From the NCBI RefSeq assembly GCF_014647375.1, contig NZ_BMPB01000006.1:362052-426051 (forward strand): DNA of 64,000 nt, given 5' to 3'. This document shows positions 3,506 through 62,679 of the stretch, piece by piece. Each line of letters opens with the position of its first letter. Position 1 is the first letter of the stretch. Source of the stretch: Parabacteroides faecis (lineage in GTDB: Bacteria; Bacteroidota; Bacteroidia; Bacteroidales; Tannerellaceae). Both the position numbers and the translations under genes were made by a program. The notes below the pieces were generated by a model. It searched no databases. It was not told where the DNA came from and saw only the letters and a list, made by a program, of their open reading frames with translations.

Positions 3506-3509
3506 GATT

Positions 3510-5882: not shown

Positions 5883-5913
5883 GGCTGATGACTGTTTTTA
5901 GTAGTTTATTTTG

Positions 5914-8310: not shown

Positions 8311-8319
8311 GGTTTAGAA

Positions 8320-9372: not shown

Positions 9373-9390
9373 ATCTGTATTATTTTATTG

Positions 9391-11778: not shown

Positions 11779-11784
11779 TTTTAT

Positions 11785-14091: not shown

Positions 14092-14102
14092 AATATTTCT
14101 GT

Positions 14103-16523: not shown

Positions 16524-16537
16524 ATATGTAGGTTGTA

Positions 16538-18865
16538 TTATTCAAATTTAATAACTTCTGCCGGATTTTTACTTGCAGCCTTCCATATTCGCCAATATAT
16601 GCAAGTGACTGTGATCATGACAAGAGATATAAATAATATCAGGTAGATCCAGAAGGGGATTGTTGTTTGTATAACGTAGTTTTCCAACCATGCTTTCATG
16701 ATCAGGTAACTGACAGGTAACGCGATGGCTGCTGCTACACAAAGTAATAATAAGTATTCTTTGAAGAACATGCGGACGATTATTCCGACTGACGCTCCGT
16801 TCACTTTACGGATAGCAATCTCTTTCCGGCGTTGTTCGCAGTTAAGAGTGACCAGCGAGAAAATGCCGAAAACGGAGATAAGGATACAGACAATGGATAC
16901 AAAGTCGAGTAACTTGATCAGGGCATTTTCCGATTGCAGGAACTTATTGAACTCTTCTTCTGTATTATTTAATCTGTAGAAAGTGAATTCCGGGTGTTTC
17001 TCTTTGATCAACGCCTCGATCCGCCGTTTGCATTCTTGCCATTGCCCTTTACGGAAAATGAAAAGGAGATTGCCGCCGGAGTTAATAGACCAGAATAGTT
17101 CTTGTACTGTAAATACCACCGGTTTCACGGGGATAGTAGGCGAATCTTTACAGAAATCGCGTATTACACCGATGATCTGTGCCCGGGTAGAGTCACTTTT
17201 GAGGAAAGATTTTCCGATCGGATCTGCCCAGCCAAACAGACGGGCGGCCGTTTCGTTGATCATCACTTTCTCTTTCCGGTCGTCATCCCTTAACATAGTG
17301 CCTTTCAGTAGCTTCAGATTATAATAATTACATATTCCTTCACCGCTGGCAATCGTCTCCAAAAGTACTTCATCGGCAGATGCAGGCTTATCATCCCATT
17401 CTTTCACCGGCATATAGCTTGCTCCGTTTTGGGGAATGAAAGAGTTGTGATTACCTGAAAGAACTTCGGTTATCATGGGGATTTGCTTAAGTTCTTCCCG
17501 CAGGCTGGCTTCGGACGATTTGGCACTGAATGTGATGGAGGCTCTTCCTACCCGTTCCACTATACGGTCGGTATGTGATAAGTAATGTATCTGTTTGATC
17601 ATCACAAGCGTGCAGAAGATGAATCCGATACTGATAATAAACTGTAAGACCAGGAAGAATTTCTGGAAATAATTCTTCCCTTTCCCTTTTTCCGTTCCTT
17701 TTATTGCTGCATTCAGCGATTGGTGGCGGAAATAATGGATAGGAAACAGAGAAATAAGGAACGACAGTAATGCTACGAAAAGGGAATAGCCGATAGCTTC
17801 CAGGTAGATTCCGTTTGTCGTTGTTTTTATTTCGGATAATTCCCGGAAAGTGGGTAGTATCAGTTCTATCAGTAACATCCCGATAAATATAGCAGTCAAT
17901 AGCGTTAATACATATTCTATAGAAAATAACTCCATCAGATGTTTATCGGAAGAACCGCATACTTTGCGTAAGGCTATTTCCTTTCCGCGCATCCGTATCC
18001 GGCTGACGAACAGAGTCAGGTAATTGAACAGCGAACAAAGGATGACCAGACCGCCCGACAAGGCAAACAACAGGATGTGATTGAATTTGATGGTCGCTTC
18101 CCGGATGGGATGGTCGTATCGCATCTGTATAATCGGGGTCAGTACGAAATGTTCCAGTTTGGCGTTATCTTTTTCAATAGTATGCTCATATATCTTTTTA
18201 CGGAAAGTCTTGATGTCCGCCTCTTTCCTTAGCTTGATAAAAGTCGTCCATCCGCAGGCGTACCAGACCGGGATCGTATAATTGGCTCTTACTATTTCAA
18301 AAGGCATGTTTGTATGAGGCTCCCAGGCTTTGACCACTGCACAAATGGGACTTTCCTGGCCGTATATGCTTAGTTCTTTCCCTATCGGGTTCTCTTTTCC
18401 GAATAGTTTTCCGGCGAGTTCTTCTGTGATGGCTATTTCTTTACTGCCGTTGACAAGGAAATTGGTATTTCCACTAACCAACCGGATCGGGAATATTTTC
18501 ATGGAGGCGGAATCCATCTGGATCTCATAAGATTGGTAAGTGATCCCTTTGTATTTGAATTCCATTTTACTGTCCGACACGTTACAGGCTTGTTCTATTT
18601 CGGGAAATGTTTCCTGCAGATAGGCTGCCAGTGGGGAAGGGGTGACTGTGGCCAAACCCTCGTTACTGTTTTTGTCTTCGTTACGGACCAGGAAAATGCG
18701 TTCCGCTTCCTCGTGAAAGTTCTCGTAGGTCATTTCGTGCCTGATCCACAGGGTTGCCAGTGCAAAACAGGTAAAACCCATCGCCAGGCCGATAATGCTG
18801 ACGATCGATTGGGTTTTATATTTTAAAAGATTGCGTATTGCAATCAGTAAGTAGTGTTTTAACAT
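16538..18865 (-). CDS. Double-FtsX ABC transporter permease, permease 7 (first gene of operon)
   Basis: A 775-residue permease, paralogous to permease 5. The FtsX motifs are EIALRKVCGSS and EIAIRKVNGAS, and the tail is NPAEVIKFE. It is promoter-proximal: the ATG at 18865 lies about 19 nt downstream of the start site predicted from the -24/-12 element at 18895-18910. The candidate enhancer lies further upstream at 18976-19002. Expression of the whole run of genes down to 1103 should therefore depend on sigma-54 and an activator of the NtrC type. Confidence 0.88.
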   Translation of the reverse strand: MLKHYLLIAIRNLLKYKTQSIVSIIGLAMGFTCFALATLWIRHEMTYENFHEEAERIFLVRNEDKNSNEGLATVTPSPLAAYLQETFPEIEQACNVSDSKMEFKYKGITYQSYEIQMDSASMKIFPIRLVSGNTNFLVNGSKEIAITEELAGKLFGKENPIGKELSIYGQESPICAVVKAWEPHTNMPFEIVRANYTIPVWYACGWTTFIKLRKEADIKTFRKKIYEHTIEKDNAKLEHFVLTPIIQMRYDHPIREATIKFNHILLFALSGGLVILCSLFNYLTLFVSRIRMRGKEIALRKVCGSSDKHLMELFSIEYVLTLLTAIFIGMLLIELILPTFRELSEIKTTTNGIYLEAIGYSLFVALLSFLISLFPIHYFRHQSLNAAIKGTEKGKGKNYFQKFFLVLQFIISIGFIFCTLVMIKQIHYLSHTDRIVERVGRASITFSAKSSEASLREELKQIPMITEVLSGNHNSFIPQNGASYMPVKEWDDKPASADEVLLETIASGEGICNYYNLKLLKGTMLRDDDRKEKVMINETAARLFGWADPIGKSFLKSDSTRAQIIGVIRDFCKDSPTIPVKPVVFTVQELFWSINSGGNLLFIFRKGQWQECKRRIEALIKEKHPEFTFYRLNNTEEEFNKFLQSENALIKLLDFVSIVCILISVFGIFSLVTLNCEQRRKEIAIRKVNGASVGIIVRMFFKEYLLLLCVAAAIALPVSYLIMKAWLENYVIQTTIPFWIYLILFISLVMITVTCIYWRIWKAASKNPAEVIKFE

Positions 18866-18894: not shown

Positions 18895-18910
18895 CACAAA
18901 AGACGTGCCA
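18895..18910 (-). promoter_or_regulatory. Sigma-54 (-24/-12) promoter of the seven-permease operon
   Basis: Read on the minus strand, the sequence is TGGCACG-TCTT-TTGTG, against the sigma-54 consensus TGGCACG-N4-TTGCW. The only departure in the conserved core is TTGT instead of TTGC, which is shared with the other two sigma-54 promoters proposed in this window. The spacing between GG and the -12 element is canonical. It predicts a start near 18884, 19 nt before the ATG of permease 7. Confidence 0.68.
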
Positions 18911-18975
18911 AAGGGATAAGTGGTTAGTAATACGTGTGTTATGCTTTGTTTGGATCTGACGGTGGTGTGTGTATC

Positions 18976-19002
18976 CGCACGAATTGCGTTCGTTTACGCA
19001 CG
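18976..19002. promoter_or_regulatory. Candidate enhancer (UAS), copy A, for the sigma-54 activator at 30618
   Basis: The sequence follows CGCACGAA-N3-CGTTCGT-N3-CGCACG and contains the inverted repeat ACGAA-N5-TTCGT. The same 27-bp pattern, with identical letters at all 21 fixed positions, occurs at 30541-30567. In both places the near edge of the motif lies 66-67 bp upstream of the -24 GG of a sigma-54 promoter, in the same orientation. That is the usual place for binding of an NtrC-type activator. The identity of the bound protein is inferred from the neighbouring regulator gene. Confidence 0.65.
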
Positions 19003-19051
19003 GTAGGGGAATTTTGCTATAAAAAAAGTGAAGCTACTTGGTTATATTTTA

Positions 19052-19059
19052 TAGTTTTG
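19052..19059 (+). promoter_or_regulatory. Possible -7 element (TAnnTTTG) for the 958-aa protein gene
   Basis: TAGTTTTG matches the Bacteroidetes -7 consensus and lies 21 bp before the ATG at 19081. No TTG is found at the expected ~20 bp upstream distance, so this is a partial match only. This promoter region is shared back to back with the sigma-54 region of the permease operon. Confidence 0.35.
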
Positions 19060-19080
19060 TGGTCTGTAACTCTATAAAAT

Positions 19081-21957
19081 ATGCAGATACCTACGTTTCG
19101 ATACCTGTTTTTAGCTGTATTTGGCTTGCTTACTTCTTTAAGTATGCAGGCACAGTTTCTTGATTACGGTTCTGATCCGGCACGCTTCAAATGGAACATC
19201 GTTAAATTGCCTCATTATAATCTGGTCTATCCGCAGGGAAACGATTCGATGGCTTATAAATATGCACTCTATCTGGAGAATGCTTATCCGCATTTGCAGA
19301 AAACGATAGGTATCGGCATGCAGAAAAAGTTTCCGGTGATCCTTCATCCGGCTAATATGTCGTCCAACGGCTTGGTATCGTGGGCACCGCGCCGTATGGA
19401 GCTGATTACAACACCTTCCTCTAAACTCGACGGGGTAAGCTGGGATAAACACCTCGTGCTGCATGAGTCACGCCATGTCCTTCAGACCAGCAAGGTTATG
19501 CGGGGCTGGTTTAAACCGTTATATTATGTGATAGGCGAACAGGCTGCCGGTGTGGCTGCTTTTTTCATGCCGAGCTGGTTTCTGGAGGGCGACGCTGTCG
19601 GAACGGAGACTTCCATGTCGAACGGCGGGAGAGGGCGGTTGCCGGAATTCAGTATGCCTTACCGTGCCCAAATGCTGGGAGAAGGTAAGAATTATTCGTT
19701 CGATAAATGGTACTTGGGTTCTTATAAGGATTATACCGGCGATTATTATGCGTTGGGGTATAATCTGACTTCTTTTGCCCGTCACCGTTTCGGATCGGAT
19801 ATCTGGGATAAGACTACCACCCGTTATGTGAACCGTTTCTTTGCGATCCCGATGTTCAGCAACGCTTTCAAACATAATGCAGGAATCAGTATCGACGGAC
19901 TGTATAATGAAACATTCGACTTTTTGCGTAAAGAGTGGGAAAAGATGGATACGGCGGCTGTTACGCCTGCTTTCCTTTCTCCGGCATCCGGGATGTACAC
20001 CTCTTACCGTTATCCGCAGGCCGTGAACGATTCGACGGTCATTGCCGTTAAATCGGGAATACAGGATATCAATTCGCTGGTATCGGTAACGAACGGGAAA
20101 GAGAAGCGGCTATGTTATCTCGGTACGATCAATAGCCGTCTGAACCTGGCGGGCAATCGGTTATACTGGACGGAGGTCGTTCCCGGACTCCGCTGGACAC
20201 ATGAAAACTATTCCGTTATCAAACAGTATGACCTGGAGACCGGGCGGCTGACGACACTCACTCCCCGCCAACGTTATCTGGCTCCGGCTATCGATAAGGA
20301 TAATCGTACAGCGGCTGTTTCCCGTTTTACGGTAAGCGGTGAAAACCAGTTGGTGCTGGTCGATCTGGCAACAGGGAAGGAACAACGTTATTTTACAGTG
20401 CCTGATAATGCCTTTTTGAAAGAACTGACTTTTGGTGATGATGGAAAGATAACCGCTGTGGCAGTTACCGATACCGGGATAAGCTTGTTACAACTGGATA
20501 CGCAAACCGGTGCATGGAGCGAGTTGCTGGCAACTACCTCTGTGAATATCACAGCTCCGTTCTGGAGTGACGGTAAGCTGTATTTTGAATCGGGGGCAAA
20601 CGGAACCAATAATATCTATTCCCTGAACTTGCCGGATACAACCGTCTACCGGTTGACATCTGCCCGCTTTGGGGCGTTCGATCCTGCTTTTTTCCCCGGC
20701 AAAGACAAACTTCTCTATTCGGATTATCAGGCAGAGGGATACCGTATCGGTTCGTTGCCGGTCGATAGCCTGAAAGCTGAAAAGGCTGATCTGGGAGAGC
20801 CTTTTCATTCCCCGCTGGTCGCTTCGTTGGCGCAGCAGGAACAGTTCAATCTCGATTCTGCAGAACTGACCCCCATCGAATTTGCTCCCCGCCCTTACCG
20901 GAAGGGATTACATACGTTCAAACTTCACAGCTGGGCTCCTTTCTATTATGATGTGGCAGAGGCTATGAATACAGGTGCCGACGATTTGAGTACGATCGTG
21001 AAACCCGGTGTTATGGTCTTGTCACAAAATACGTTGAATACAGCCATTATGCAGGCGGGATGGTATTATCGAAAAGGCGAACATCACGGTAAGTTGTCAT
21101 TTACTTACAAAGGCTGGTTCCCGGTTATCGATATAGCCGCCGACTATGGCGGAAAGGCATTCGATGTAACCTGGATGACCAACGACAAAGGAAAAGAGGT
21201 TGCGCAGGCCAAAACAGTGAAGCGGACGTTGCTGGAAGCCGAAGCACGTGTCTATCTTCCTTTCAATTTGACCCGCAACCATTATATACGTGGAATACAA
21301 CCGGCTGTTGCATACTATTTTACAAACGACAAGTACCAGCAATACGAAAGCCGTACATATAGCAATTTCCAATATATCCTGCCGGAAGTGTTGTTTTACA
21401 GTTACCGCAAGAAAGCATTGCGTGATATTCTTCCCCGGTGGGGATATCAGTTGCGTCTGCAATACCTGCAATCTCCTTTTAACAAAGAGAATTACGGAAG
21501 CCTGTATGCAGGGCGCCTTACTACTTACTGGCCCGGTATCCTGCGTAACCACGGGTTGATGCTACGGGTAGGATATCAATATCAGAGTGTGGACAATAAA
21601 ACGTTGTATTTGCCGAAGCACCTGATCGAAAAGCCTCGTGGATATGATTTTATGTATCAGACCCGGCAGCAGATTGCCTTTAAAGCGGATTATGCTTTTT
21701 CTATCTTTTCTCCGGACCTTAGTCTGGGACAACTGGCTTATATCCGGCGTTTGCGTGCCAATCTGTTTTACGACCTCAACCGTAACCAGGCAGCGAAAGG
21801 GCGTGACTGGACGACACAGAGTTCTTTCGGTACTGACCTGATATTCGACTGGAATGTTTTTCGGATGAGCTTCCCGTTAACTACCGGTGTACGCTTGATA
21901 CAACCGATCGATTACGGTAAATTCCAGGCCGAGGCGTTGTTCTCCATTACATTTTAG
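19081..21957 (+). CDS. Exported HExxH metallopeptidase-like protein with propeller and outer-membrane barrel
   Basis: A 958-residue protein with a signal peptide (cleavage near residue 24, MQAQ). Residues ~30-200 carry a zinc-peptidase motif H128-E-S-R-H132, and the downstream WFLEGDA segment offers Glu169 as the third ligand, as in gluzincin/peptidase-MA-like domains. A region of WD40/TolB-like beta repeats follows (~330-620). The last ~300 residues are rich in alternating strands and end in a terminal Phe (FSITF), typical of an outer-membrane beta barrel. Proteolysis at the outer membrane is the best guess, but the substrate is unknown. It is transcribed divergently from the permease operon and may be regulated independently. 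I do not recognise a named gene. Confidence 0.72.
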   Translation: MQIPTFRYLFLAVFGLLTSLSMQAQFLDYGSDPARFKWNIVKLPHYNLVYPQGNDSMAYKYALYLENAYPHLQKTIGIGMQKKFPVILHPANMSSNGLVSWAPRRMELITTPSSKLDGVSWDKHLVLHESRHVLQTSKVMRGWFKPLYYVIGEQAAGVAAFFMPSWFLEGDAVGTETSMSNGGRGRLPEFSMPYRAQMLGEGKNYSFDKWYLGSYKDYTGDYYALGYNLTSFARHRFGSDIWDKTTTRYVNRFFAIPMFSNAFKHNAGISIDGLYNETFDFLRKEWEKMDTAAVTPAFLSPASGMYTSYRYPQAVNDSTVIAVKSGIQDINSLVSVTNGKEKRLCYLGTINSRLNLAGNRLYWTEVVPGLRWTHENYSVIKQYDLETGRLTTLTPRQRYLAPAIDKDNRTAAVSRFTVSGENQLVLVDLATGKEQRYFTVPDNAFLKELTFGDDGKITAVAVTDTGISLLQLDTQTGAWSELLATTSVNITAPFWSDGKLYFESGANGTNNIYSLNLPDTTVYRLTSARFGAFDPAFFPGKDKLLYSDYQAEGYRIGSLPVDSLKAEKADLGEPFHSPLVASLAQQEQFNLDSAELTPIEFAPRPYRKGLHTFKLHSWAPFYYDVAEAMNTGADDLSTIVKPGVMVLSQNTLNTAIMQAGWYYRKGEHHGKLSFTYKGWFPVIDIAADYGGKAFDVTWMTNDKGKEVAQAKTVKRTLLEAEARVYLPFNLTRNHYIRGIQPAVAYYFTNDKYQQYESRTYSNFQYILPEVLFYSYRKKALRDILPRWGYQLRLQYLQSPFNKENYGSLYAGRLTTYWPGILRNHGLMLRVGYQYQSVDNKTLYLPKHLIEKPRGYDFMYQTRQQIAFKADYAFSIFSPDLSLGQLAYIRRLRANLFYDLNRNQAAKGRDWTTQSSFGTDLIFDWNVFRMSFPLTTGVRLIQPIDYGKFQAEALFSITF

Positions 21958-22080
21958 GAAAGAATCGTTCACTCTTCACCTTTATGTATATAAGTTGTTG
22001 CTTATTAGTTGTTTATCTTGTGGTAAATCGAGTGAATGGTTTGACTAAAAGGTGAATGGTTTATCCGAACCCTTCACCCA

Positions 22081-22100
22081 GCCTCCTGCCGAGGCTTTAT
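22081..22100 (+). terminator. Weak terminator-like hairpin after the 958-aa gene
   Basis: GCCTC-CTGCC-GAGGC followed by TTTAT gives a 5-bp GC-rich stem and a short T run. It lies 124 bp downstream of the stop codon. The stem is short, so function is uncertain. Confidence 0.3.
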
Positions 22101-22265
22101 AGAGTGAAATTGTTTACACCAGAAGAAGAAGGATACTTTGTTAATCGGTTTCGCGGTCATACATAGAAAATATTTGAGCCAATGTGGCAATATGCCCATG
22201 TGCCAATTTAGAAAGATTTGAACTATTCAGCTATAAACCATCAGTCATCAATAGGGCTGGTATAG

Positions 22266-22437
22266 TTACAGGTCCATTTGCCGTCGGTTTTAACCGACGG
22301 ATAAGTAAATACTCTATCTTTTTGGACTTTAGTCCCATTTAAAGAGTCTCTCTATGTAAAGAGAAATGTGGCTGAAGCCAATAAAGAGAAGCAACTTGTA
22401 AACCGTCAGTTAAAACTGACGGCAAATAAACCTGTAA
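22266..22437. repeat. 172-bp MITE/REP-like element with 35-bp terminal inverted repeats
   Basis: Outer arms at 22266-22300 and 22403-22437 are inverted copies with four mismatches in 35 bp. Each arm itself contains a perfect palindrome: GCCGTCGGTTTTAACCGACGG-type on the left, and its CCGTCAGTTAAAACTGACGG counterpart on the right. The interior holds further small palindromes (GGACTTTAGTCC and TGGCTGAAGCCA). No coding capacity is visible. The nested palindromes resemble REP/BIME-type intergenic repeats or a miniature transposable element mobilised in trans. Confidence 0.7.
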
Positions 22438-22580
22438 TGGCTAAGTCACTTTGATAAAGGGATAGCTCATTATTGATAAATTCCGAACCTTTCCCTTAAT
22501 CCTACTATCATTCATATAATTGGGAACTAATCGGAAAGTAATATATAGCTAATGGTAAACATGCTATCAGGTCGTTTTTT

Positions 22581-22634
22581 GACCGCCATCGTTAAGCTTG
22601 TCGACGTGGGTGGTTAAGCTTAATGACGGTGGTC
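22581..22634. repeat. Imperfect 19-bp inverted repeat with GTTAAGCTT words
   Basis: Arms at 22581-22599 and 22616-22634 match with three mismatches, both ending in TTAAGCTT/AAGCTTAA at the loop side. A third GTTAAGCT word follows at 22658. The stem has 19 bp with a 16-bp loop. There is no T run, so it is not an obvious terminator; it is probably another intergenic repeat unit. Confidence 0.5.
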
Positions 22635-22896
22635 GAAAAGCTTGCCGGGCATGGTCGTTAAGCTATTGGGTTATCATTTTTGTGTTAATATACTATTGTC
22701 GGCGGGTTAATGGGTTATATGATAATGGATAGTAGTTCAGGGTGAAGGGTTTGTAGTAACCATTCATCCTTTTGCTTAACCGTTCACCTGAGTGTCGTAT
22801 TGTAATTGTCATTATATTAGTTATATACGATAGAATGGTGAACGGTGAATGCTTTTATGTCTGAATTGCATAGATATGCTTGTCTGTTTTCCGGAT

Positions 22897-25266
22897 TTAT
22901 TCTGTTTTAATTGCTTTCGCAGGGTTTGTCCGTGCTGCTTTTCGTATCTGCCAGATCAGGGTGATCAGCGATATGCTTGCGGTCAGCAGGAAAGCAACAG
23001 CAAAAATCCACCAGGATAACGGTGCTTTATTGGCAAAGTTCTCCATATATTTCGTGATAGCCAGCCAGGAAAGAGGCGTAGCGATGATGAAAGATAATCC
23101 CAGCAGCCTGTAATATTTTCGCAACAGCAAATTGGTGATGACTCCCACTGTCGCTCCGTTTACTTTACGGATTGCTATTTCCTTGTAGCGCTGCTGAATA
23201 TCGAAAAGCGAAAGGCTGAATAAGCCCATAGAAGATATCAGGATGGAAATTAAGGTGAAAACAGTATAAATCCGGGCTACCAACCGGTCTTTTTCGTACA
23301 TGGCACTGATCTCATCTTCGACGAAGGTATATTCAAATTCACCCCCGATGGTCTTATCATGCAATCCTTTCAGAAGTTGTATCGCTTCCTGGCGGCGTCC
23401 GGGTACAATGGAAGCCATTAGTTTCCCCGGCCAGAACAATTCGTCCTGTACGTCTTTGAGGGTGATGACAATCGGTTGGTTGCGCTGGGAGAGGTGTACT
23501 ACCTGAAATTCGGGAGTAAAACCTTTTACCAGAAACGACTCGGTACCATTATACGAATCTCTCTCCAGTTCCGTAGGGGCTTGCCCATTCTGACTGAATA
23601 ACTTTCTGGCGGTTTCATTCATCAGTACTTCTTTTTCACTTTGGGGAAACTTATCTGCTGAAACCGGTATTTCATATACATCAAAGAAACTTTTGTATAG
23701 CTTCACTTGAAGGACTTCCTGCCATTCTCCTCCCGGAATACGCATATTTATCCTGTTAAACTGATCGTCCGGCAATTCATACGGGCTTTCTCCGTAAGAG
23801 AATGTCTGGAATAGGGGAGATACTTTGAGTGCTTCCTGCACAGTAAAAGAAATATCATCAGATCGTTTCTGGTCTTCTTCTCCATAGGTCATTTTGGAAG
23901 AAGGACGTATGAACCAGGCTTTTATGATGTCCTGCGTCCGATATCCCAGGTCTGCATTCAGCATAAAATGTAATTGCTTCATAAAGAACAGGGAAGAAAT
24001 GATCAGGCAACAGGTAATCACATACTGAACGACAAGAAAAAGAGAACGGGTACCCATTTTGTTTTTTCCGGGAGTAATTCCCTGAAGCGAACGGATCGTT
24101 TGCCGGTAGCTGTAATTGAAAAACGGGTACAGCGTGATGATCAACGGCAATCCGAGCAAGAGGATAAGGGTTAGGACTGTGTTGAAGGATGAACCGACAG
24201 TAGCGATGATGCCCAGTTGATTGATTTGTATCGGTTGGGTGATCTCGATGATCATCCAACTAAGAAAAAGAGCGATAGCTGTCAGTACCAGATTCTCTGC
24301 ATATAGCTGGATAAACAGTTGTACAGGTCTTGCCCCGAATACTTTTTTCATTCCCAGTTCACGGCCTCGTTTAATGATAACGACCGAGCTGATATGAATA
24401 AAGTTGAACAAGCCGATAAATAATAACAGTATGGCGACAAACGACAGTATTTTCAGGCTGTCGGCATTTCCTTGCCGGAAAGTGTCCTGTCCTTTGTCAA
24501 TGGCTTTATCCATATACAGTTTGTCGAGCGGTATGACCTGGAAAAAGAAACTTTTACTACCCGCCTTATGAAAGTCCGTTTTGAGTTTCTCGTTGATCTG
24601 TCTGGCATCGACACCGGGAAAAGCCAGGGCGACACTGAAATAATTAACCGGCGGCCAACGCCATTGTAGTTCTTTGGATATCAGCAGGTCGAAAGCTAGC
24701 GAACTTTGTGTATGTGGCTCTCCGATAATACCTTTGATAGTCAGAATATTTCCGTTATAGTCAAAGTTCTTGCCGATCGGACTTTCTTCACCGAATAATT
24801 TCTGTGCGAACCGTTTTGTGATGACGGCTTCTTTAGGGTCAGTCAATAGCCGGGAACGGCTTCCTTCTATGACCGGGAAGTCGAGTATCTGAAGGAAGAA
24901 GGTATCTGTTGCCAGGACATGTGCTTTGAATCTTTTTTCATCGACTTTGATCTCTGCATTACCGAGGGAGACAAAGGAGGTCCTTTGCTCTATTTCCGGA
25001 ATGTCCAGCGGATTGACGTAGTCTCTTTTCATGAGTACGTTGTCTGTTGTGCATAAGAGTGTTTTTTGTTCTCCCTCCCCCCAGTGGCGTACACTCAGAT
25101 ACATCCGTTCATGATTTTTATTGAAATGATCGGTCGTCGCTTCGCTATATACATATCGGCTGATAATGATAACACAGGCCAGGCTCAATGCCAGACCGAG
25201 TACATTGATAACAGTGTATAAACGGAAACGCATCAGTGAGCGTATGGCTAGTAGGATGATCTTCAT
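22897..25266 (-). CDS. Double-FtsX ABC transporter permease, permease 8
   Basis: A 789-residue permease of the MKIILLAIR...LRFRLYT type. The first TM (~18-38) is followed by a periplasmic domain with the TTDHFNKNHERMYLSVRHWG segment. The FtsX halves carry ELGMKKVFGAR and EIAIRKVNGAT, and the C-terminus is NPAKAIKTE. It is the last gene of the TolC-adaptor operon, 22 bp after its closest relative permease 9. Because its operon partners include an adaptor and an outer-membrane channel, this permease may take part in a tripartite MacAB-TolC-like machine. The required ATPase is not encoded here. Confidence 0.88.
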   Translation of the reverse strand: MKIILLAIRSLMRFRLYTVINVLGLALSLACVIIISRYVYSEATTDHFNKNHERMYLSVRHWGEGEQKTLLCTTDNVLMKRDYVNPLDIPEIEQRTSFVSLGNAEIKVDEKRFKAHVLATDTFFLQILDFPVIEGSRSRLLTDPKEAVITKRFAQKLFGEESPIGKNFDYNGNILTIKGIIGEPHTQSSLAFDLLISKELQWRWPPVNYFSVALAFPGVDARQINEKLKTDFHKAGSKSFFFQVIPLDKLYMDKAIDKGQDTFRQGNADSLKILSFVAILLLFIGLFNFIHISSVVIIKRGRELGMKKVFGARPVQLFIQLYAENLVLTAIALFLSWMIIEITQPIQINQLGIIATVGSSFNTVLTLILLLGLPLIITLYPFFNYSYRQTIRSLQGITPGKNKMGTRSLFLVVQYVITCCLIISSLFFMKQLHFMLNADLGYRTQDIIKAWFIRPSSKMTYGEEDQKRSDDISFTVQEALKVSPLFQTFSYGESPYELPDDQFNRINMRIPGGEWQEVLQVKLYKSFFDVYEIPVSADKFPQSEKEVLMNETARKLFSQNGQAPTELERDSYNGTESFLVKGFTPEFQVVHLSQRNQPIVITLKDVQDELFWPGKLMASIVPGRRQEAIQLLKGLHDKTIGGEFEYTFVEDEISAMYEKDRLVARIYTVFTLISILISSMGLFSLSLFDIQQRYKEIAIRKVNGATVGVITNLLLRKYYRLLGLSFIIATPLSWLAITKYMENFANKAPLSWWIFAVAFLLTASISLITLIWQIRKAARTNPAKAIKTE

Positions 25267-25288
25267 GAGGATGTATTATATAATTAGT

Positions 25289-27697
25289 TTATTCGGATTT
25301 GATAGCTTCGGCCGGATTGGTCCGTGCCGCTTTCCGTATCTGCCAGATCAGTGTTGCCAAAGATATGCCGGCTGTAATCAGTAGGGCGACGGCGAAGATC
25401 CACCAGGAGACAGATGCCTTGTGTGCGAAGTCTTCCAGATAGCGGTTGATGGCTAGCCAGGAGATTGGTGCGGCTATCAAGAAGGCGATTCCCAATAGTT
25501 TGTAATATTTCTGCAAGAGCATTCGCATGACGATGGCGGTAGTGGCCCCGTTTACTTTGCGGATGGCTATTTCGCGGAAACGTTGCTGTACGTCGAATAA
25601 CGAGAGACTGAATAGACCCAGGGAAGAGATCAGGATTGCGATTACGGCAAAGATGGAATAGATCTGTGTAAGGTGAAGATCTTCCAGATATAGTTCCCTG
25701 TGCTTGTCTTCGATAAAGCTATATTCGAAATTACCGCCGATCAGTTCGTCGTGCATACTTTTCAGAAATTGTATGGCTTCCTGCCTTTTCCCGGGAGCGA
25801 TCGAAGCGAGTAAAGGTTCTCCGTACCAACTGGCACTTGGGGTCAGTATGATCGGATAATTTTTATTCGACAGATGGATGGGATTGAAATCTTTGAAAAC
25901 ACCTAATATACGATACGGTGGGTTCTGACTCATATCTCCTCCCAAATTGTACCATAATCGCTTCTCGGGTTGTAAGACTGTGCTTTCGATATCTTTTATA
26001 CCTAATAGCTTCTTACCGGATTCGCTGATATACAATTCGTATCCTCTGTTCGATGGTTCTTCGTTGCTGATTGGTTCCCCTTCTATGATTTGGAGATTGA
26101 ATAGTTTCATCCAGGCGGGCGTATTACTCATCACCCAGAATTCCTCGTATTTGCCGTCGGGCAGTTTGAATTTGGTGGTATACCCTTTATTCTTTGTGTT
26201 TTTTATCGGTTGATCTCCATACGTCCAATGTTCGAATAACGGAGATGTATCCATTTTCTGTTGGACAATCTGTTTGATATCTTGTCTTCTTTTATCTTCT
26301 TTAGCCCATTCCTCCGGCGTGAGATCCTTTCCCATATAATGGAATTTCATGAATTGGGTCTCGATAATATCTTCTGTCCGTATTCCGATATCAGCATTTA
26401 GCATGAACCGTAATTGTTTGGTAAAGAACAGTGAACAGGTGACAAGGGCAAAAGTAATGATATATTGGGTTGTCAGGAATAATTTGCGTGAGACAATAGA
26501 ACCTCCGGCCTGGTTGACGGAGCGAAGAGATTTGATTGGGGCTGAATAGTTGTAACGGATATAGGGAATCAATGCCGTGACACATGGAAGGATCAGCAGA
26601 ATGCAACCCGAAAGGAGAAGGTCGAACTCTCGGTTGGATACCGGGGTGATATTCAATTGCGTTCGTACTAACGGGTCGGTTATCTCGACGATCATCCATC
26701 CTGCTAACAGGGCAATTCCGGTCATCAGGATATTTTCCATATATAACTGTGCATAGATCATTTTACTTCCGGCTCCGAATACTTTCTTCATGCCGAACTC
26801 TCTTCCCCTCCGTAAAATAACAACCGAGTAGATATTAATGAAATTGAAGAGTCCGATAAGCAAAATCATCAATGCAACTATCGACAGGATCCATACATGA
26901 GTAAAGTTACCGGTTCTGAAGAAGTAGTTTTCGATATTACCGTTGAAATAGACTTTTGATAGCGGGTAAAGCTGGAAGCGGAGGCTGAATCGCCATAATT
27001 CCATGTGCATGAATTTGTTGTACTGTGCATTGACCTGCTGATAATCGGTGTTCGGATGAAGCCGTACCAGATGAATGCCGATATGATCCCAGAAGGAGGA
27101 TAACCGGTCGGAGACTATAATGTCAAAGTCTATACTACTGGCAGTTACCGGTTCCCCGATGATACCGACGATCGTGACAACTTTACCGCTGAAGAGTTGC
27201 AATTGTTTACCGAGTACCGGTTCTTCTGCAAATATTTTCCGGGCAAACTGCCGGGTGATAATGGCTTCATTCGGTTTTGTCAGCGTCGTTGTGCCGCTGA
27301 TCAGCGGATATGTTAGTATTTTGAAGATATTACTGTCGGCTACAAGGGTTTTGCATCCGTATCCTTTGTCGTTATATAAGCAATCGGTATTGTCATATAA
27401 TATCATTCGGCTTGCATATTCTACAGCGGGATGCTCCAACAAATTGATAAATGAGGCTTCGTTGTTCGGATTTCCTATATCGGAATATCTGAGGATACCC
27501 GGATTTTGATCGTCTTCATAAACCGTTACATAGATCCTGTCGAGTTCCGGAAGAAAGTGATCGGTGGATAATTCACTGTGTACATACCGGCCGATAGTAA
27601 TTACACAGGCCATACTAAGGGCTAGCCCTAAAATATTTATAATGGTATAGAGCCGAAAATGACTAAGTGCTCGTATGGCAAGTAGAAGTATTTTCAT
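25289..27697 (-). CDS. Double-FtsX ABC transporter permease, permease 9
   Basis: An 802-residue paralogue of permeases 4 and 8. It shares LYTIINILGLALSMAC, STDHFLPELDRIYVTV, EFGMKKVFGAG, EIAIRKVNGAT and the tail TNPAEAIKSE. The second periplasmic domain is relatively rich in charged residues (EEWAKEDKRRQDIKQ). It lies 18 bp downstream of the adaptor gene. Two similar but non-identical permeases in a row suggest a heterodimer, as in LolCE, though this is an inference. Confidence 0.88.
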   Translation of the reverse strand: MKILLLAIRALSHFRLYTIINILGLALSMACVITIGRYVHSELSTDHFLPELDRIYVTVYEDDQNPGILRYSDIGNPNNEASFINLLEHPAVEYASRMILYDNTDCLYNDKGYGCKTLVADSNIFKILTYPLISGTTTLTKPNEAIITRQFARKIFAEEPVLGKQLQLFSGKVVTIVGIIGEPVTASSIDFDIIVSDRLSSFWDHIGIHLVRLHPNTDYQQVNAQYNKFMHMELWRFSLRFQLYPLSKVYFNGNIENYFFRTGNFTHVWILSIVALMILLIGLFNFINIYSVVILRRGREFGMKKVFGAGSKMIYAQLYMENILMTGIALLAGWMIVEITDPLVRTQLNITPVSNREFDLLLSGCILLILPCVTALIPYIRYNYSAPIKSLRSVNQAGGSIVSRKLFLTTQYIITFALVTCSLFFTKQLRFMLNADIGIRTEDIIETQFMKFHYMGKDLTPEEWAKEDKRRQDIKQIVQQKMDTSPLFEHWTYGDQPIKNTKNKGYTTKFKLPDGKYEEFWVMSNTPAWMKLFNLQIIEGEPISNEEPSNRGYELYISESGKKLLGIKDIESTVLQPEKRLWYNLGGDMSQNPPYRILGVFKDFNPIHLSNKNYPIILTPSASWYGEPLLASIAPGKRQEAIQFLKSMHDELIGGNFEYSFIEDKHRELYLEDLHLTQIYSIFAVIAILISSLGLFSLSLFDVQQRFREIAIRKVNGATTAIVMRMLLQKYYKLLGIAFLIAAPISWLAINRYLEDFAHKASVSWWIFAVALLITAGISLATLIWQIRKAARTNPAEAIKSE

Positions 27698-27715
27698 GGT
27701 ATCTGTTTTCTGCTT

Positions 27716-28966
27716 TTATTTCAGAATCAATTCTTCCGCGTCGCCAAAAGTACTATATCCGGTGACAATAACCTTGTCGCCTGCTTGTAATCCGCCGGTA
27801 ATCTCATACTGCTGCGGATTCTGGCGGCCGATGCTGATGCTTACTTTACGCGCTTTTGTTCCTGCCTCGTTCAGTTTATATATCCATTGTCCGCCGGTAG
27901 TCTGGAAGAAATCTCCGCGGGGGATGACCAAGGCTTCTTCCGGTTGTCCCAGTTCGACCTGTACACGGAAGCTTTTTCCGATACGGACATTGTCGGGAGA
28001 TTCTTCGGTGAAGACAAGGTCGACATCGAAGTTACGGTCTTTTACTTCCGGTACTACTTTGGTGATACGCAACGGATATTTCTTTCCCTGCCAGGTGATC
28101 GTGGCGGGGAGGCCGGTGGTGATACGGTCGATATAATATTCACTGAGTGAGGTATGTATTTTGAACTGGTCGAGTACCTTGATCTCGGCGATGGCCTCTG
28201 TACTCTGTACCTGCTGGCCCGGAGTCACTTTGACGAAACTCAGCTGTCCTGCCAACGGAGCACGGACGATCAGGTTCTCCATACGTTCCTGAGCGCGGTC
28301 GAATTTCTTTCGTTCCCGTTCCAGGTCGTTCTTCATCAGTTCGCGGCGGAGGATGGTTGCTGCACTGTCGTGGCGCAAACCTTCCAGTTGCAGAGCCGTA
28401 CTTTGTGTTTTATATTCGAATTCATCCCGCTGTACTTCCAACTGTGCTTTGCTTTTTACACCCATACGGAACTCCTCTTCATCGAGGGCGAAACTCTTTT
28501 TCAGTCGGTTGAGTTCGTAGGTCGTTTGTAGCGTCTGCTTCTGCAGGTCCAGGCTTTTCTGTTCCATTTCGATCTCTTTTTCCTGGTAGGAGATCAGCTG
28601 CTTTTCCCATTCGTCCCGCTGGTCGTCGATAGTACGTACCAGGTCCGGATTATTCAGGGTCAGGATGGTGTCTCCTTTTTCCATCATAGTCCCTTCTTCT
28701 GCCACGATCCGTTCGACGCTTCCGGCTTCCCGGGCATTTATCTTAATGGTCAGGATCGGTTGAACGACGCCCTCCACATCTACGTATTCGAGGAATTTAT
28801 CCGCTTGTGCTTCACCGATAATAAGGTTGTCGGCCTCTGTACGTAGTTTTCGTCCTCCGGATGCAACGATGGAAACATACACTAGGAGGATTATAAAAGC
28901 TACACCTCCGGCAATATGCCAGCGGTAACGGTAATATACGGGTTTCTTTTCAATAGGTCTGTCCAT
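27716..28966 (-). CDS. MacA/HlyD-family periplasmic adaptor (membrane fusion protein)
   Basis: A 416-residue protein with one N-terminal TM helix at ~19-36, anchoring it in the inner membrane. Two halves of a lipoyl-like motif (~75-105 and ~232-260) flank a long alpha-helical coiled coil (~110-230) rich in Glu, Gln, Lys and Arg. A beta-barrel and membrane-proximal domain follow. This is the layout of adaptors that bridge an inner-membrane transporter to TolC. It lies 4 bp after the TolC-like gene and 18 bp before two FtsX permeases, so the physical partners are probably those gene products. Confidence 0.9.
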   Translation of the reverse strand: MDRPIEKKPVYYRYRWHIAGGVAFIILLVYVSIVASGGRKLRTEADNLIIGEAQADKFLEYVDVEGVVQPILTIKINAREAGSVERIVAEEGTMMEKGDTILTLNNPDLVRTIDDQRDEWEKQLISYQEKEIEMEQKSLDLQKQTLQTTYELNRLKKSFALDEEEFRMGVKSKAQLEVQRDEFEYKTQSTALQLEGLRHDSAATILRRELMKNDLERERKKFDRAQERMENLIVRAPLAGQLSFVKVTPGQQVQSTEAIAEIKVLDQFKIHTSLSEYYIDRITTGLPATITWQGKKYPLRITKVVPEVKDRNFDVDLVFTEESPDNVRIGKSFRVQVELGQPEEALVIPRGDFFQTTGGQWIYKLNEAGTKARKVSISIGRQNPQQYEITGGLQAGDKVIVTGYSTFGDAEELILK

Positions 28967-28970
28967 TATT

Positions 28971-30449
28971 TTATTTCATTAATTGTTCGTAATCGAATGT
29001 CAGTTCACGGCTTTTCTCGAAGTCGTAGCCGGTCATGCTGCGCAGGCCGTAATACAAGCTCCAGTAATTATATAAAGCCGTGATATATTCTCTTCGTGCC
29101 CGATCTTTTTCGCTGATGGAAGCGTTGAGATCGAGGATAGTGGATTTGCCCAGGAGGTAAAGTTTCTGTGCCACATCGTTCCTGCGTTGGGCGGTCAGGT
29201 CGGTCTTTTGGGCGATCGTCACTTTATCTGCCTGCAGGTTGAACTGTTTGACCATTTTGATGACGTTCAGTTCGAAATCATTGCGCGATTGTTCTACTTC
29301 GGTATATACTTTGTCGCGATTGCTGAGGGCCACTTTAACCTTTCCTTTGCCTACGCCCCAGTCCAGGATCGGGATTCGTATACCCAAACTGACCAGCTGC
29401 TGGTCCAAAGGATTCCGGTAAGCCTCTTTCAGTTTCTCATTCGTCTGTGTCAGTCCGAATTGCATGTACAGGTCGGCTTTGAAGCCGCGCGAAGCTTTTG
29501 CCTGTGCAACGGCACTTTCACTTTCAAGCCGACGGCGCTGCAGATATTCCGGCTCCGGATTGTTTTCATAAGCCAGTTCCAGAGCTTGTTTTACATCCAC
29601 ATTGAAATGCGGTATTTCTTCATTTACATCGGCAACCAGTTCGGAGGCATTATTGATCCCCAGGTAACTGCGTAGAGACTGGATACAGTCGTCCACTTCG
29701 ATACGGGCGTTCATCATATTTGTTTGCTCGGTCAGCAGGTTAAGCTCCAGTTGCAGCATCTCGTTTTCTGTGATCGTCCCGATATTATACCGTCCTTTAG
29801 CATATTGGAACAGTGTATCGGCATTTGCGTAATTATATTGTGCTATTTCCCAGTTCGTCTGTGCAGTCGCCAGTTGGAAAAACTGTTGGGTAGCCTGTGC
29901 GGCTACCAGTTCCAGTGTTTCTACCAAATTCTTTTGTGATTCGACATAGCGGATAGGTTCGATTTTTCTATCCCATTTGAACTGGTTGTATCCGAACAGG
30001 TTTTGCTCATATCCGACAACTACCGGTGTACTGTTATACGAGCTGGTCTTTTCCGAAAACAGATCCAGTCTTTGTAAGGCCGTTTTTACAAAGAGGCTAC
30101 CTCCTGTGAACGGTATATTCTGATTGATCGTTAAACCGGCATCTATCATCAATTGGTTACGATGAACGAAACTCTCTCCTCCGTCGGGTAATGTAACCGA
30201 ACTGATCGACCGGTTCAGCGAAGGATTGGAGGTGAAAGTAAGACTCGGCAGCATGTTTGCCCGGAAAGAACGCCAGTTCCAGTAAGATGCCCGGAAAGAA
30301 TGACGAGCGGCAATAGCCTGGGGCGATTGCTCCTGTGCGATGCGTACAGTCTCTGACAAAGTCAGATGTAACGTGTCCTGCGAGTAGGCCGGAAATAGGA
30401 CCGTCGTGGCAAGGATTATGGATAATATGTAACTTTTTATCTGTTTCAT
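28971..30449 (-). CDS. TolC-family outer-membrane efflux protein
   Basis: A 492-residue protein with a signal peptide (cleavage after ~23, AYSQ) and two outer-membrane efflux (OEP) repeats. Long amphipathic helices such as LELVAAQATQQFFQLATAQ support the trimeric TolC-type channel fold. It is the first gene of the operon with the adaptor and two permeases. The ATG at 30449 is almost at the start site predicted from the sigma-54 element at 30461-30476, so the message would have virtually no leader if that promoter is correct. Confidence 0.92.
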   Translation of the reverse strand: MKQIKSYILSIILATTVLFPAYSQDTLHLTLSETVRIAQEQSPQAIAARHSFRASYWNWRSFRANMLPSLTFTSNPSLNRSISSVTLPDGGESFVHRNQLMIDAGLTINQNIPFTGGSLFVKTALQRLDLFSEKTSSYNSTPVVVGYEQNLFGYNQFKWDRKIEPIRYVESQKNLVETLELVAAQATQQFFQLATAQTNWEIAQYNYANADTLFQYAKGRYNIGTITENEMLQLELNLLTEQTNMMNARIEVDDCIQSLRSYLGINNASELVADVNEEIPHFNVDVKQALELAYENNPEPEYLQRRRLESESAVAQAKASRGFKADLYMQFGLTQTNEKLKEAYRNPLDQQLVSLGIRIPILDWGVGKGKVKVALSNRDKVYTEVEQSRNDFELNVIKMVKQFNLQADKVTIAQKTDLTAQRRNDVAQKLYLLGKSTILDLNASISEKDRARREYITALYNYWSLYYGLRSMTGYDFEKSRELTFDYEQLMK

Positions 30450-30460
30450 ATTCTATAAGA

Positions 30461-30476
30461 AACAAATAGTATGCCA
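30461..30476 (-). promoter_or_regulatory. Sigma-54 promoter of the TolC-adaptor-permease operon
   Basis: On the minus strand the sequence is TGGCAT-ACTAT-TTGTT, with the GG and TTGT boxes at canonical spacing. It departs from consensus at two core positions (TGGCAT for TGGCAC, TTGT for TTGC). Support comes from the 27-bp motif placed 66 bp upstream, exactly as in the other permease operon. The oddity is that the predicted start falls about 1 nt before the ATG. Confidence 0.58.
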
Positions 30477-30540
30477 TATTTGTAACCTGTTGATTGATAG
30501 TTCTAAAAGAAACGATGCGATTGCTTTTGTAGTGCGTGTA

Positions 30541-30567
30541 CGCACGAAAAACGTTCGTATTCGCACG
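30541..30567. promoter_or_regulatory. Candidate enhancer (UAS), copy B
   Basis: Second copy of the CGCACGAA-N3-CGTTCGT-N3-CGCACG motif. Here it is preceded by a perfect 14-bp palindrome GTGCGTGTACGCAC (30532-30545) that overlaps it. It lies between the divergent efflux operon and the regulator gene at 30618. Bound activator could therefore drive the operon and also affect its own gene. Confidence 0.65.
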
Positions 30568-30617
30568 CACATACAATAGCTTTTATACTTATCTTTACAA
30601 CCAAATCAGAAACAGGA

Positions 30618-31982
30618 ATGAAACAAGGGAAAATATTAATCATCGATGACAATGAAGATGTGCTTTTTGCATTGAATCTGCTGTTGGAGCCTTATGTCGA
30701 ACAGATCCGTGTCACTACGCAACCGGAACGGATCGAGCATTTTATGGAAAGCTATGTGCCCGATGTGATTTTACTGGATATGAATTTCCGGCGGGATGCC
30801 ATCAGCGGGCAGGAAGGTTTCTTCTGGCTTGAAAAGATAAAGAAGACAGACCCGGATGCTGTCGTTCTTTTTATTACGGCTTATGCCGATACGGAAAAAG
30901 CCGTACGTGCCATTAAAGCCGGGGCGACGGATTTTATACCTAAACCCTGGGAGAAAGAGAAGTTGCTGGCTACCTTGTCTGCCGCTCTGAAACTTCGGGA
31001 AAGCCGTACCGAGGTTCGGTCGCTGAAACGTCAGGTAGCAGCTCTTGAGAGTTCGGAGGATGACGGGTTTGAGATTATCGGTGAAAGTAATGCCATGCAG
31101 GAGATCTTTACGACGATCGAGAAGTTGCGTGATACGGATGCAAATATCCTGATTCTGGGTGAAAACGGTACGGGTAAGGATCTTGTGGCACGTGCCTTAT
31201 ATCATCATTCGCCACGTAACGGACAGGTTTTCGTAGGGATCGATCTGGGGAGTATCCCTGAACAACTTTTCGAGAGTGAACTGTTCGGATATGAGAAAGG
31301 AGCTTTTACCGATGCCCGTCGTGATAAACCGGGACGTATGGAGGTGGCTACCGGCGGTACACTTTTCCTGGATGAGATCGGTAACCTGAGTCTGCCTATG
31401 CAAGCTAAATTGCTGACAGCGATAGAGAAACAACAAATCACCCGTTTAGGAGCGACACGTCCGATAACCATTGATGTCCGCCTGATCTCGGCTACCAATA
31501 TAAATATTCATGAGATGGTGGGAAAGGGTACTTTCCGTCAGGATTTACTCTATCGTATCAATACGATAGAACTACATATTCCTCCTTTACGGGAACGCGG
31601 TAATGACATTCAGTTGCTGGCAGATTATTTTCTTGCCCGTTATGCCCGTAAATACAAGAAAGATATCAAAGGTCTCTCACGTGATGCACGGAGTAAGCTG
31701 CAGAATTACAACTGGCCGGGGAACGTCCGCGAATTACAACATGCGATTGAACGGGCAGTGATCCTATCTGATGGCATGATGCTGAAACCGGAGAATTTCA
31801 TGCTTCAGCCTACTGCATCGAATAAGATTGCAGAGCTGGAAGAGCTCAACCTGAGCATTCTGGAGAAGGAAGCGATCGAACGTGCTTTGCGGCGTGCCGA
31901 AGGGAATGTGACCCGTGCTGCCGAACTATTGGGAATTACCCGTTTTGCCCTTTACCGGAAACTGGATAAGCTGGGCCTATGA
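30618..31982 (+). CDS. Sigma-54-dependent response regulator (NtrC family)
   Basis: A 454-residue protein in three parts. The receiver domain (1-120) has phospho-acceptor Asp54 (LLDMN) and Lys109. The AAA+ domain (~150-385) has Walker A GENGTGKD (181-188), the sigma-54 contact loop GAFTDA (228-233, where the classic form is GAFTGA) and Walker B LFLDEIG. The C-terminus is a Fis-type helix-turn-helix (~415-454). It should activate sigma-54 promoters when phosphorylated. The two candidate enhancers and three -24/-12 elements in the window make the flanking permease operons likely targets. It overlaps the kinase gene by 4 bp. Confidence 0.93.
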   Translation: MKQGKILIIDDNEDVLFALNLLLEPYVEQIRVTTQPERIEHFMESYVPDVILLDMNFRRDAISGQEGFFWLEKIKKTDPDAVVLFITAYADTEKAVRAIKAGATDFIPKPWEKEKLLATLSAALKLRESRTEVRSLKRQVAALESSEDDGFEIIGESNAMQEIFTTIEKLRDTDANILILGENGTGKDLVARALYHHSPRNGQVFVGIDLGSIPEQLFESELFGYEKGAFTDARRDKPGRMEVATGGTLFLDEIGNLSLPMQAKLLTAIEKQQITRLGATRPITIDVRLISATNINIHEMVGKGTFRQDLLYRINTIELHIPPLRERGNDIQLLADYFLARYARKYKKDIKGLSRDARSKLQNYNWPGNVRELQHAIERAVILSDGMMLKPENFMLQPTASNKIAELEELNLSILEKEAIERALRRAEGNVTRAAELLGITRFALYRKLDKLGL

Positions 31983-32980
31983 AACGGTATATTATCCTGA
32001 TAAAGATCGTTTTGATTGTATTGCTCTCGCTGGCTATTGCATTCCTCATATTGAAAAGCCTTTATTTTACATCTGTTATGATGGGGGCCATCCTGGTCGT
32101 ACTGGCTTTCTCTTTGTATCTGGACCAGCGGAAGACGATCCGCCGGATGGAGCATCTGATTGCGAATATCCATTACGGGGATCTGAACCTCTCTTTTCCG
32201 GTACCTTCTTCCGGAGGTGCTGAAGCCCAGTTGACCCGTTCGATGAATGAGGCCTTGAATGCATTCCGTTCCCGGCTTTATAACTCAGTAGTGGCGGAAG
32301 CTGAGACGGATGCCTGGCAGAAATTGATCCGTGTCCTTACGCACGAGATCATGAATTCGATCGCCCCGATTATCTCCCTGTCGGAAACGGTTACGGAACG
32401 TGCTGCTTCGAATGGGATGAATGAACGTGATTATGCCGTGATGCTGCAGGCGATACAGACCATTCATCGTCGTAGCAAAGGGTTGCTCGACTTTGTGGAA
32501 AATTACCGTAAGCTGACGCGTATTCCGACTCCGACCATGCAGATATTTCCGGTATCGACTTTGTTCAGTGATTTACAAAAACTGGTCCCGGCAGCGGGTA
32601 TACATGTCGTTTACTCCATTCATCCGGCAGAACTGAGACTGTATGCCGACCGGAGCATGATCGAACAAGTCCTTATCAACCTGCTGAAAAATGCTATAGA
32701 AGCCTGTTGTGACAGTGAGTTCCCTGAAATTCATATAGATGCTTTCAGACGGGACGGGATGCCGGTCGTAACTGTATCTGATAACGGCAGCGGTATCGTG
32801 CCTGAAGCATTGGATAAAGTGTTTGTCCCTTTCTTTACAACCAAACAGAGAGGATCGGGGATTGGATTGAGCGTCTGCCGGCAAATTCTGAACCGGCATG
32901 GCGGTAATATAACCGTTGCATCGGAAATAGAAAAAGGAACCACATTTACCATGCAATTCCCCGGTACACGTGTAATTTAG
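31979..32980 (+). CDS. Intramembrane-type sensor histidine kinase (NtrB/NtrY-like)
   Basis: A 333-residue kinase. Two TM helices (~4-25 and ~31-47) are separated by only about five residues, so there is almost no extracytoplasmic part. A HAMP-like linker leads to the phospho-acceptor His122 (LTHEIMNSIAP). The ATP-binding domain has an N box (INLLKNAIEA), a DNGSGI box and a GSGIGL box. The ATGA overlap with the regulator gene indicates translational coupling and a cognate pair. With no sensor domain of its own, the kinase probably reads its signal inside the membrane, possibly from a partner such as the nearby permeases. Confidence 0.92.
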   Translation: MKRYIILIKIVLIVLLSLAIAFLILKSLYFTSVMMGAILVVLAFSLYLDQRKTIRRMEHLIANIHYGDLNLSFPVPSSGGAEAQLTRSMNEALNAFRSRLYNSVVAEAETDAWQKLIRVLTHEIMNSIAPIISLSETVTERAASNGMNERDYAVMLQAIQTIHRRSKGLLDFVENYRKLTRIPTPTMQIFPVSTLFSDLQKLVPAAGIHVVYSIHPAELRLYADRSMIEQVLINLLKNAIEACCDSEFPEIHIDAFRRDGMPVVTVSDNGSGIVPEALDKVFVPFFTTKQRGSGIGLSVCRQILNRHGGNITVASEIEKGTTFTMQFPGTRVI

Positions 32981-60075: not shown

Positions 60076-60120
60076 AGCCAATATTGTTTCATTATTATCA
60101 GTACTGTAAAGTTACTAATT

Positions 60121-61395: not shown

Positions 61396-61397
61396 AA

Positions 61398-62663: not shown

Positions 62664-62679
62664 ACTGGTTTCTTTTGAT

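Follow-up and report, generated by a model that had tools for sequence, protein, structure and literature searches.

Two operons of permease genes in Parabacteroides faecis are each preceded by a sigma-54 promoter and share a short upstream sequence, raising the questions of which protein recognizes this sequence and which genes it controls. The DNA analyzed here, referred to as the window, is the whole stretch of 64,000 nucleotides. An earlier note on this DNA had described a 27-bp pattern in two copies and had judged their agreement very unlikely to have arisen by chance. Both copies (18976-19002 and 30541-30567) matched the 27-mer with 0 mismatches, with all 21 fixed bases present; these were the only copies in the window even when up to 3 mismatches were allowed, and 100 dinucleotide shuffles of the window gave 0 matches, in keeping with that judgment. 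The distances reported between the near edge of the motif and the -24 GG were also recovered: measured to its first G, they were 67 bp (18976 to 18909) for one copy and 66 bp (30541 to 30475) for the other, so that the spacing is nearly identical and not, as had been stated, identical.

The shared motif was real, but its full extent was not 27 bp. Matches in relatives exhibited a second dyad, indicating that the element extends beyond the 27-mer, which was rejected as the complete element in favor of a 35-bp tandem dyad that fits the sites better. This fuller element, GTGCG-N4-CGMAC-N7-GTGCG-N4-CGCAC, consists of two 14-bp dyads with a center-to-center distance of 21 bp. Enhancer 1 (18967-19001, reverse strand; GTGCGTAAACGAAC-GCAATTC-GTGCGGATACACAC) has 1 mismatch to the 35-bp consensus, and enhancer 2 (30532-30566, reverse strand; GTGCGAATACGAAC-GTTTTTC-GTGCGTACACGCAC) has 0. 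The associated sigma-54 promoters, both on the reverse strand, are located 56 nt from enhancer 1 (promoter 1, 18896-18910; TGGCACGTCTTTTGT) and 55 nt from enhancer 2 (promoter 2, 30462-30476; TGGCATACTATTTGT). If the T of TGG is taken as -26, the dyad centers would lie near -89 and -110. TGGCAY-N5-TTGT was detected three times in the window, as promoters 1 and 2 and at 63379-63393, compared with an expectation of 0.20. The spacers and flanks of the two element copies diverge, while the dyads and the promoter spacing are retained.

Operon 1 (1103-18865, reverse strand) contains seven genes for FtsX/MacB-type permeases and one for a beta-propeller protein (8320-9372), separated by gaps of 4 to 31 bp; the permease genes at 16538 and 1103 were placed by family search and the other five by similarity to the window permeases. 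Operon 2 (22897-30449, reverse strand) encodes a TolC-like outer membrane channel, an HlyD-like adaptor and two FtsX permeases, with gaps of 4 to 22 bp. Genes within each operon are presumably co-transcribed, and the operon 1 permeases are related to those of operon 2. No ATPase gene is present in operon 1 or operon 2, and hence a co-regulated ATPase may serve both in trans. Enhancer 2 sits between the pump operon and a regulator gene (30618-31982, forward strand).

The 35-mer was found at 5 places in the P. faecis genome with up to 3 mismatches allowed, while the reversed control gave 0. A search for the element plus a TGGCA promoter, with 50 to 70 nt allowed between them, returned the same 5 places, all with a gap of 55 or 56 nt, and again 0 in the control; each of the 5 element-promoter sets faces a gene for a pump, a permease or an ATPase. 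Besides the TolC-HlyD-two-permease operon and the seven-permease operon of the window, the targets comprise an ABC ATPase gene followed by genes for a thioredoxin-like protein and an S9-type peptidase, located 5.5 kb to the left of the window (L021), and lone FtsX permease genes on contigs C14 and C5. The genome scan that the earlier note had called for thus returned a sigma-54 promoter at 55 to 56 nt and a similar gene ahead for all 5 elements. Its proposal of a small regulon was supported, but not the restriction to two loci 11 kb apart, as there are five members on three contigs and one of these is an ABC ATPase.

The genome contains one sigma-54 gene (PF04552 match, 178 bits). The canonical promoter pattern TGGCAY-N3-WTTTGY was detected 24 times, compared with 5 times in the reversed control, and the element was present at 4 of these 24; the promoter of the fifth element, that on C5, has an unusual -12 ending in TTGG and falls outside the canonical pattern. 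Further canonical promoters precede genes for a protein that, from its start, we take to be DnaK-like (L248, C15), a TolC-like protein (L244, C12) and a protein resembling the permease encoded at 61398 (L249, C15), the last two having GGACA/TGTCC-like repeats upstream. Two identical divergent sigma-54-like promoter sequences with 9 bases between them were also observed (L251 and L252, C19:79470-79508).

One copy of the 27-mer had been described as lying beside an NtrC-type regulator. A family search confirmed the domains of the 30618-31982 product, a response regulator with a receiver, a sigma-54 AAA+ domain and a Fis-type helix-turn-helix (PF00158, 217 bits; PF00072, 71 bits; PF02954, 53 bits), which is the proposed enhancer-binding protein. 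Among solved structures, NtrC-family regulators and ZraR are nearest to it. The adjacent gene (31979-32980, forward strand) encodes a histidine kinase of 333 amino acids that has two hydrophobic segments near its N terminus and only a very short link between them; by simple hydropathy, no periplasmic sensor domain was apparent. Eleven kinases analyzed in this way resembled one another in having two segments and a short link, a layout that would suit an intramembrane-sensing histidine kinase, these segments being merged in L078 and accompanied by extra segments in others. A cytoplasmic insert of ∼100 residues is absent from 4 of 5 Parabacteroides kinases (those of the window, L025, L034 and L078) and present in L035 and the other kinases compared. 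Firmicutes kinases of the short-link type sense through FtsX-type BceAB transporters, and a transporter-coupled or membrane signal is, by this analogy, plausible for the 31979-32980 kinase. Short regulators of 258 to 272 amino acids with a receiver-like start adjoin permeases in three species (L021:5029-5847 on contig C6, L033:2445-3260 and L091:9690-10466). As read from its sequence, the L021 protein has a Fis-type helix-turn-helix-like end and is missing most of the AAA+ domain; such proteins could bind without activating sigma-54.

Named genomes were scanned for the element plus promoter with the spacing left free between 46 and 76 nt. At least 115 stretches matched, of which the 80 listed are described here. 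All but one of these 80 (79/80) came from Bacteroidales or near kin, extending from Parabacteroides to Prevotella, the exception being from Achromobacter; the 79 include Minthenecus, which we count as near Bacteroidales, and a "Bacteroidia bacterium" that we assign to the kin by its class only. The spacing was 55 to 56 nt in 69 of the 80 matches listed and 53 to 57 nt in 75, while in 5 it was 63 to 68 nt, roughly one helical turn more. The first downstream gene encoded TolC in 45, an FtsX permease in 19 and another window protein in 1; it was unmatched in 4 and unreadable in 11, so that TolC or FtsX was next in 64 of the 69 listed matches with a readable gene. A regulator with at least 58% identity was present in 34 of the 80 loci listed. 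Much of the element is fixed by the search pattern itself, but positions left free by it were also conserved among the 79 listed matches remaining when Achromobacter was dropped: G11 in 79/79, G32 in 77/79, C10 in 67/79 and C31 in 61/79. These 79 sites comprised 76 distinct 35-mers. The conservation across species sought by the earlier note was therefore observed, the element-promoter arrangement being kept across many genera. Among 395 sampled genomes of the phylum, 3 (G000, G140 and G666) had the exact combination, corresponding to 2/6 genomes inside the order and 1/389 outside it. The matches in Achromobacter (L164) and G666 (L316) are inside open frames and look like chance occurrences. 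Two matches to the 27-mer in relatives (L039 and L040) had neither a promoter by the pattern used nor an adjoining pump gene.

Co-occurrence of the element and the regulator was assessed in two sets that share genomes, with identity cut-offs of 63% and 68% that were fixed after the lists had been seen. Among 295 genomes of the order, 11 had the regulator at ≥63% identity (among the matches listed), 13 had the element with ≤2 mismatches and 8 had both. The element was thus present in 8/11 regulator genomes versus 5/284 others (P = 1.6 × 10−10, with related genomes treated as independent, as in the other counts given here). Of the 3 regulator genomes not counted as having the element, two (G313 and G113) carry one with 3 mismatches next to the regulator; in G172 the regulator is on a short contig, and no element was found there. 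Among 60 relatives, 14 had the regulator at ≥68%, 17 had the element with ≤3 mismatches and 13 had both, i.e., 13/14 regulator genomes versus 4/46 others (P = 5.9 × 10−9). The element was absent at ≤3 mismatches from one regulator genome, G006.

Element matches in genomes without a regulator above the cut-off were of several types. In the 60 relatives these were G011, G018, G020 and G025; the elements of G011 and G018 have promoters at 55 and 56 nt, while no sigma-54 promoter was detected at the G020 and G025 matches even with a wider pattern. This wider pattern takes in TTGA endings and gives promoters in L035 and L082. In G011 the regulator coding region occurs as two overlapping frames beside elements (G011:C6:39087-40441), and four good elements are left in this genome. 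Element-like matches lacking this regulator were found in five genomes of the order set (G074, G186, G187, G254 and G282), and none of the matches examined had a sigma-54 promoter even by the wider pattern: those in G187 and G254 are in tandem repeats, those in G186 and G074 are inside an open frame, and that in G282 is upstream of an FtsX permease.

These results make it very probable that the 35-bp element is an upstream activating sequence (enhancer) of the 30618-31982 regulator and that the five units are switched on together. As we picture it, the partner kinase would phosphorylate the regulator on receipt of its signal, and the phosphorylated protein would bind as dimers to the two dyads, 21 bp or two helical turns apart. 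The bound regulator would then assemble into an AAA+ ring driving open-complex formation by sigma-54 RNA polymerase at TGGCAY-N5-TTGT. The units predicted to be co-activated are the TolC-HlyD-FtsX operon, the seven-permease operon, the DarD-like ABC ATPase with the genes behind it and the two lone FtsX permeases. Together these could make a MacAB-TolC/Dar-like exporter family whose ATPase, supplied in trans, would power transport of the cargo.

The element could be a genuine sigma-54 enhancer that is bound by another NtrC-type regulator of the genome, or by several. We consider this unlikely, even though five or more related regulators (E ≤ 1e-100) are encoded in the P. faecis genome, including one on C13 that is 62% identical to the 30618 regulator, and another regulator lies in the window at 58720-60075. 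The element directly adjoins a 30618-type regulator in many genomes, and the sister regulators appear to have sites of their own. The C13 paralogue (G000:C13:1407-2762; L077 and L290) adjoins other FtsX permeases and has upstream of it a tandem-dyad enhancer (2954-2988) of the sequence GTTCGGAATCGTAT-GGAAAGT-GTACGATATCGTAC, with TGGCATAGATATTGG 55 nt away. The geometry is the same, with half-sites of GTACG, and a similar GTACG element was detected at 3/5 such loci in the genus.

Regulators gathered by protein similarity alone were compared for their recognition helices and upstream dyads, one being skipped due to a short upstream region. Perfect GTGCG dyads were present upstream of 8/23 regulators of the aromatic-helix class and 0/26 of the TS-helix class, which comprises the C13 paralogue and its kin (P = 0.001), while perfect GTACG dyads were present upstream of 0/23 and 7/26, respectively (P = 0.011); the half-site hypothesis had been drawn from one of these 7 GTACG cases, and a single genus accounts for three of them. 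Within the first 500 bases of the called genes, GTGCG dyads were found in 1/23 and GTACG dyads in 0. The match between helix and half-site is a correlation only, as the two helix classes are also two clades. A third module in the window also differs in its dyad. This second exporter module (57407-63348) contains an ATPase gene, two permease-like genes (assigned as such by weak similarity), a kinase gene and the 58720-60075 NtrC-type regulator, the third regulator of the window, with recognition helix QT. The only GTCCG-N4-CGGAC dyad of the window (63439-63452) is upstream of this module, 45 nt from its sigma-54 promoter (63379-63393; TGGCACATACGTTGT). A single GTCCG case proves nothing but fits a GTNCG series.

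The position of enhancer 2 beside the regulator gene suggests a further role. A putative housekeeping -7 box for this gene (30590-30597, forward strand; TATCTTTA) is located 23 nt from enhancer 2; in the available portions of PMC7366714 and PMC12632263, the Bacteroides -7 consensus is given as TAnnTTTG. A box with ≤1 mismatch to TAnnTTTG starts exactly 23 nt from the regulator-adjoining element in 38/46 sites, 34 of them perfect, compared with 9/74 sites unassigned to a regulator (Fisher test, P = 5 × 10−15, figures uncorrected). In fact, 8 of these 9 loci do contain the regulator, L038 (G018) being the exception. L038 has an element with both a sigma-54 promoter and a 23-nt -7 box, but where the regulator would be expected it encodes a 386-amino-acid protein whose start is P-loop-like and, after that, a fragment of a kinase. 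Due to this fixed distance of 23 nt to the regulator's own -7 box, the element beside the regulator probably also controls the regulator's own expression. As the element covers the expected -33 region, autorepression is the more likely mode of control, with activation from about -42 as the alternative.

Nineteen regulator-proximal elements came from loci outside the element-promoter scan; a -7 box was present at 17/19 and an outward sigma-54 promoter at 9/19. The remaining 10/19 have no sigma-54 promoter by the pattern, 5 of them being in loci whose pump or permease is served by another element. In five Parabacteroides loci (L025, L028, L031, L032 and L078) a gene lies between the regulator and the pump operon; here no sigma-54 promoter was recognized at the regulator-side element, and the pump has an element of its own, an arrangement that fits a separate autoregulatory role. 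The 10/19 elements and the abutting housekeeping promoter would also suit a reading in which the element is the site of an unrelated repressor or activator and is near sigma-54 promoters by accident. This appears very improbable, given the distance of 55 to 56 nt to the -24/-12 in most of the matches listed, with 5 of the other 11 at 63 to 68 nt, and given the co-occurrence of the element with an NtrC-type regulator. Recent duplication or functionless chance similarity, which the nearness of the two operons and their related permeases might bring to mind, can be dismissed almost entirely, as dyads and promoter spacing are kept where spacers and flanks differ and the arrangement recurs in many genera with hardly any 35-mer repeated.

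With the element read as the enhancer of the 30618 regulator, a broader and more tentative scheme can be drawn, which we regard as possible though somewhat less than an even prospect. One enhancer, bound by the same regulator, would serve two polymerases, activating the divergent sigma-54 pump promoter at 55 to 56 nt and controlling the regulator's housekeeping promoter 23 nt away on the opposite side, by repression or by class-II-like activation from about -42. In addition, the third base of GTNCG-N4-CGNAC (G, A or C, accompanying helix F/Y, TS or QT, respectively) would act as a code insulating sister export regulons, and the kinases may perceive their signal via the transporters themselves. 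If this scheme is true, a simple protein-DNA specificity code keeps sister export regulons apart, and the half-site difference between the paralogues would illustrate clearly how related enhancer-binding proteins may avoid cross-talk. With the enhancer, its proposed regulator and the targets defined, regulation of this large but little-understood family of envelope exporters can be tested directly in common laboratory strains. The arrangement also suggests how an ATPase gene at another locus could be expressed in concert with permease operons that lack one.

Sigma-54 control of Bacteroidia FtsX permeases has been predicted previously, in a genome-wide promoter analysis. In the available text of PMC12316311, predicted sigma-54 promoters are enriched before COG0577 FtsX-type permeases in Bacteroidia, which is called the first evidence of this link; promoter class, permease family and bacterial class are all the same as here. 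No enhancer element or cognate regulator for the COG0577 permeases was seen in that text, and the words UAS, AtoC and Parabacteroides are absent from its main text. The available part of PMC10434189 gave no lead on the 30618 regulator. Among titles and the starts of abstracts, with most subscription papers and bioRxiv outside this scope, no paper describing this enhancer or regulator was found, and an enhancer-regulator pair for these exporters was not found described in the sources as available. Comparative studies of sigma-54 enhancer-binding-protein regulons in Clostridiales (PMC6615313) and Desulfovibrio (PMC4641369) used, in the portions available, the same kinds of evidence, i.e., conserved enhancer motifs, sigma-54 promoters and neighboring regulators; unlike here, they concern other phyla, and the target pathways named there are different.

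The exporter genes resemble those of two known systems. As in MacAB-TolC, an FtsX/MacB_PCD permease, an HlyD adaptor, a TolC channel and an ABC ATPase are all encoded; the Pfam families FtsX, MacB_PCD, HlyD_3, OEP and ABC_tran all scored above their cut-offs in the P. faecis genome, the ATPase being unlinked. The resemblance to the darobactin exporter DarBCD is seen in the ATPase, with 292 bits to DarD (cut-off 375), and the adaptor, with 148 bits to DarC (cut-off 450), while the permeases gave weak DarB and MacB matches, none of those scored exceeding 91 of 700 bits. All curated Dar cut-offs were missed, and in contrast to both DarBCD and MacAB-TolC there are many more permeases here and the ATPase is encoded separately.

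The control system most closely resembles the NtrC family (NtrBC, ZraSR and AtoSC), with which it shares a regulator composed of a receiver, a sigma-54 AAA+ domain and a Fis-type helix-turn-helix, as well as dyad enhancers upstream of -24/-12 promoters. The best NCBIfam model for the 30618 regulator was TIGR02915 (PEP-CTERM-box response regulator; 421 of 503 bits, below the cut-off), and the scores for AtoC (361/714 bits), ZraR (323/760) and NtrC (352/559) were also under the curated cut-offs. Unlike in NtrBC, ZraSR and AtoSC, the targets are FtsX/TolC exporters and the kinase is without an apparent periplasmic sensor domain. Judged by the features tested, the system nevertheless belongs among the NtrC-type sigma-54 enhancer regulons, and as far as its sequence indicates it works like one.
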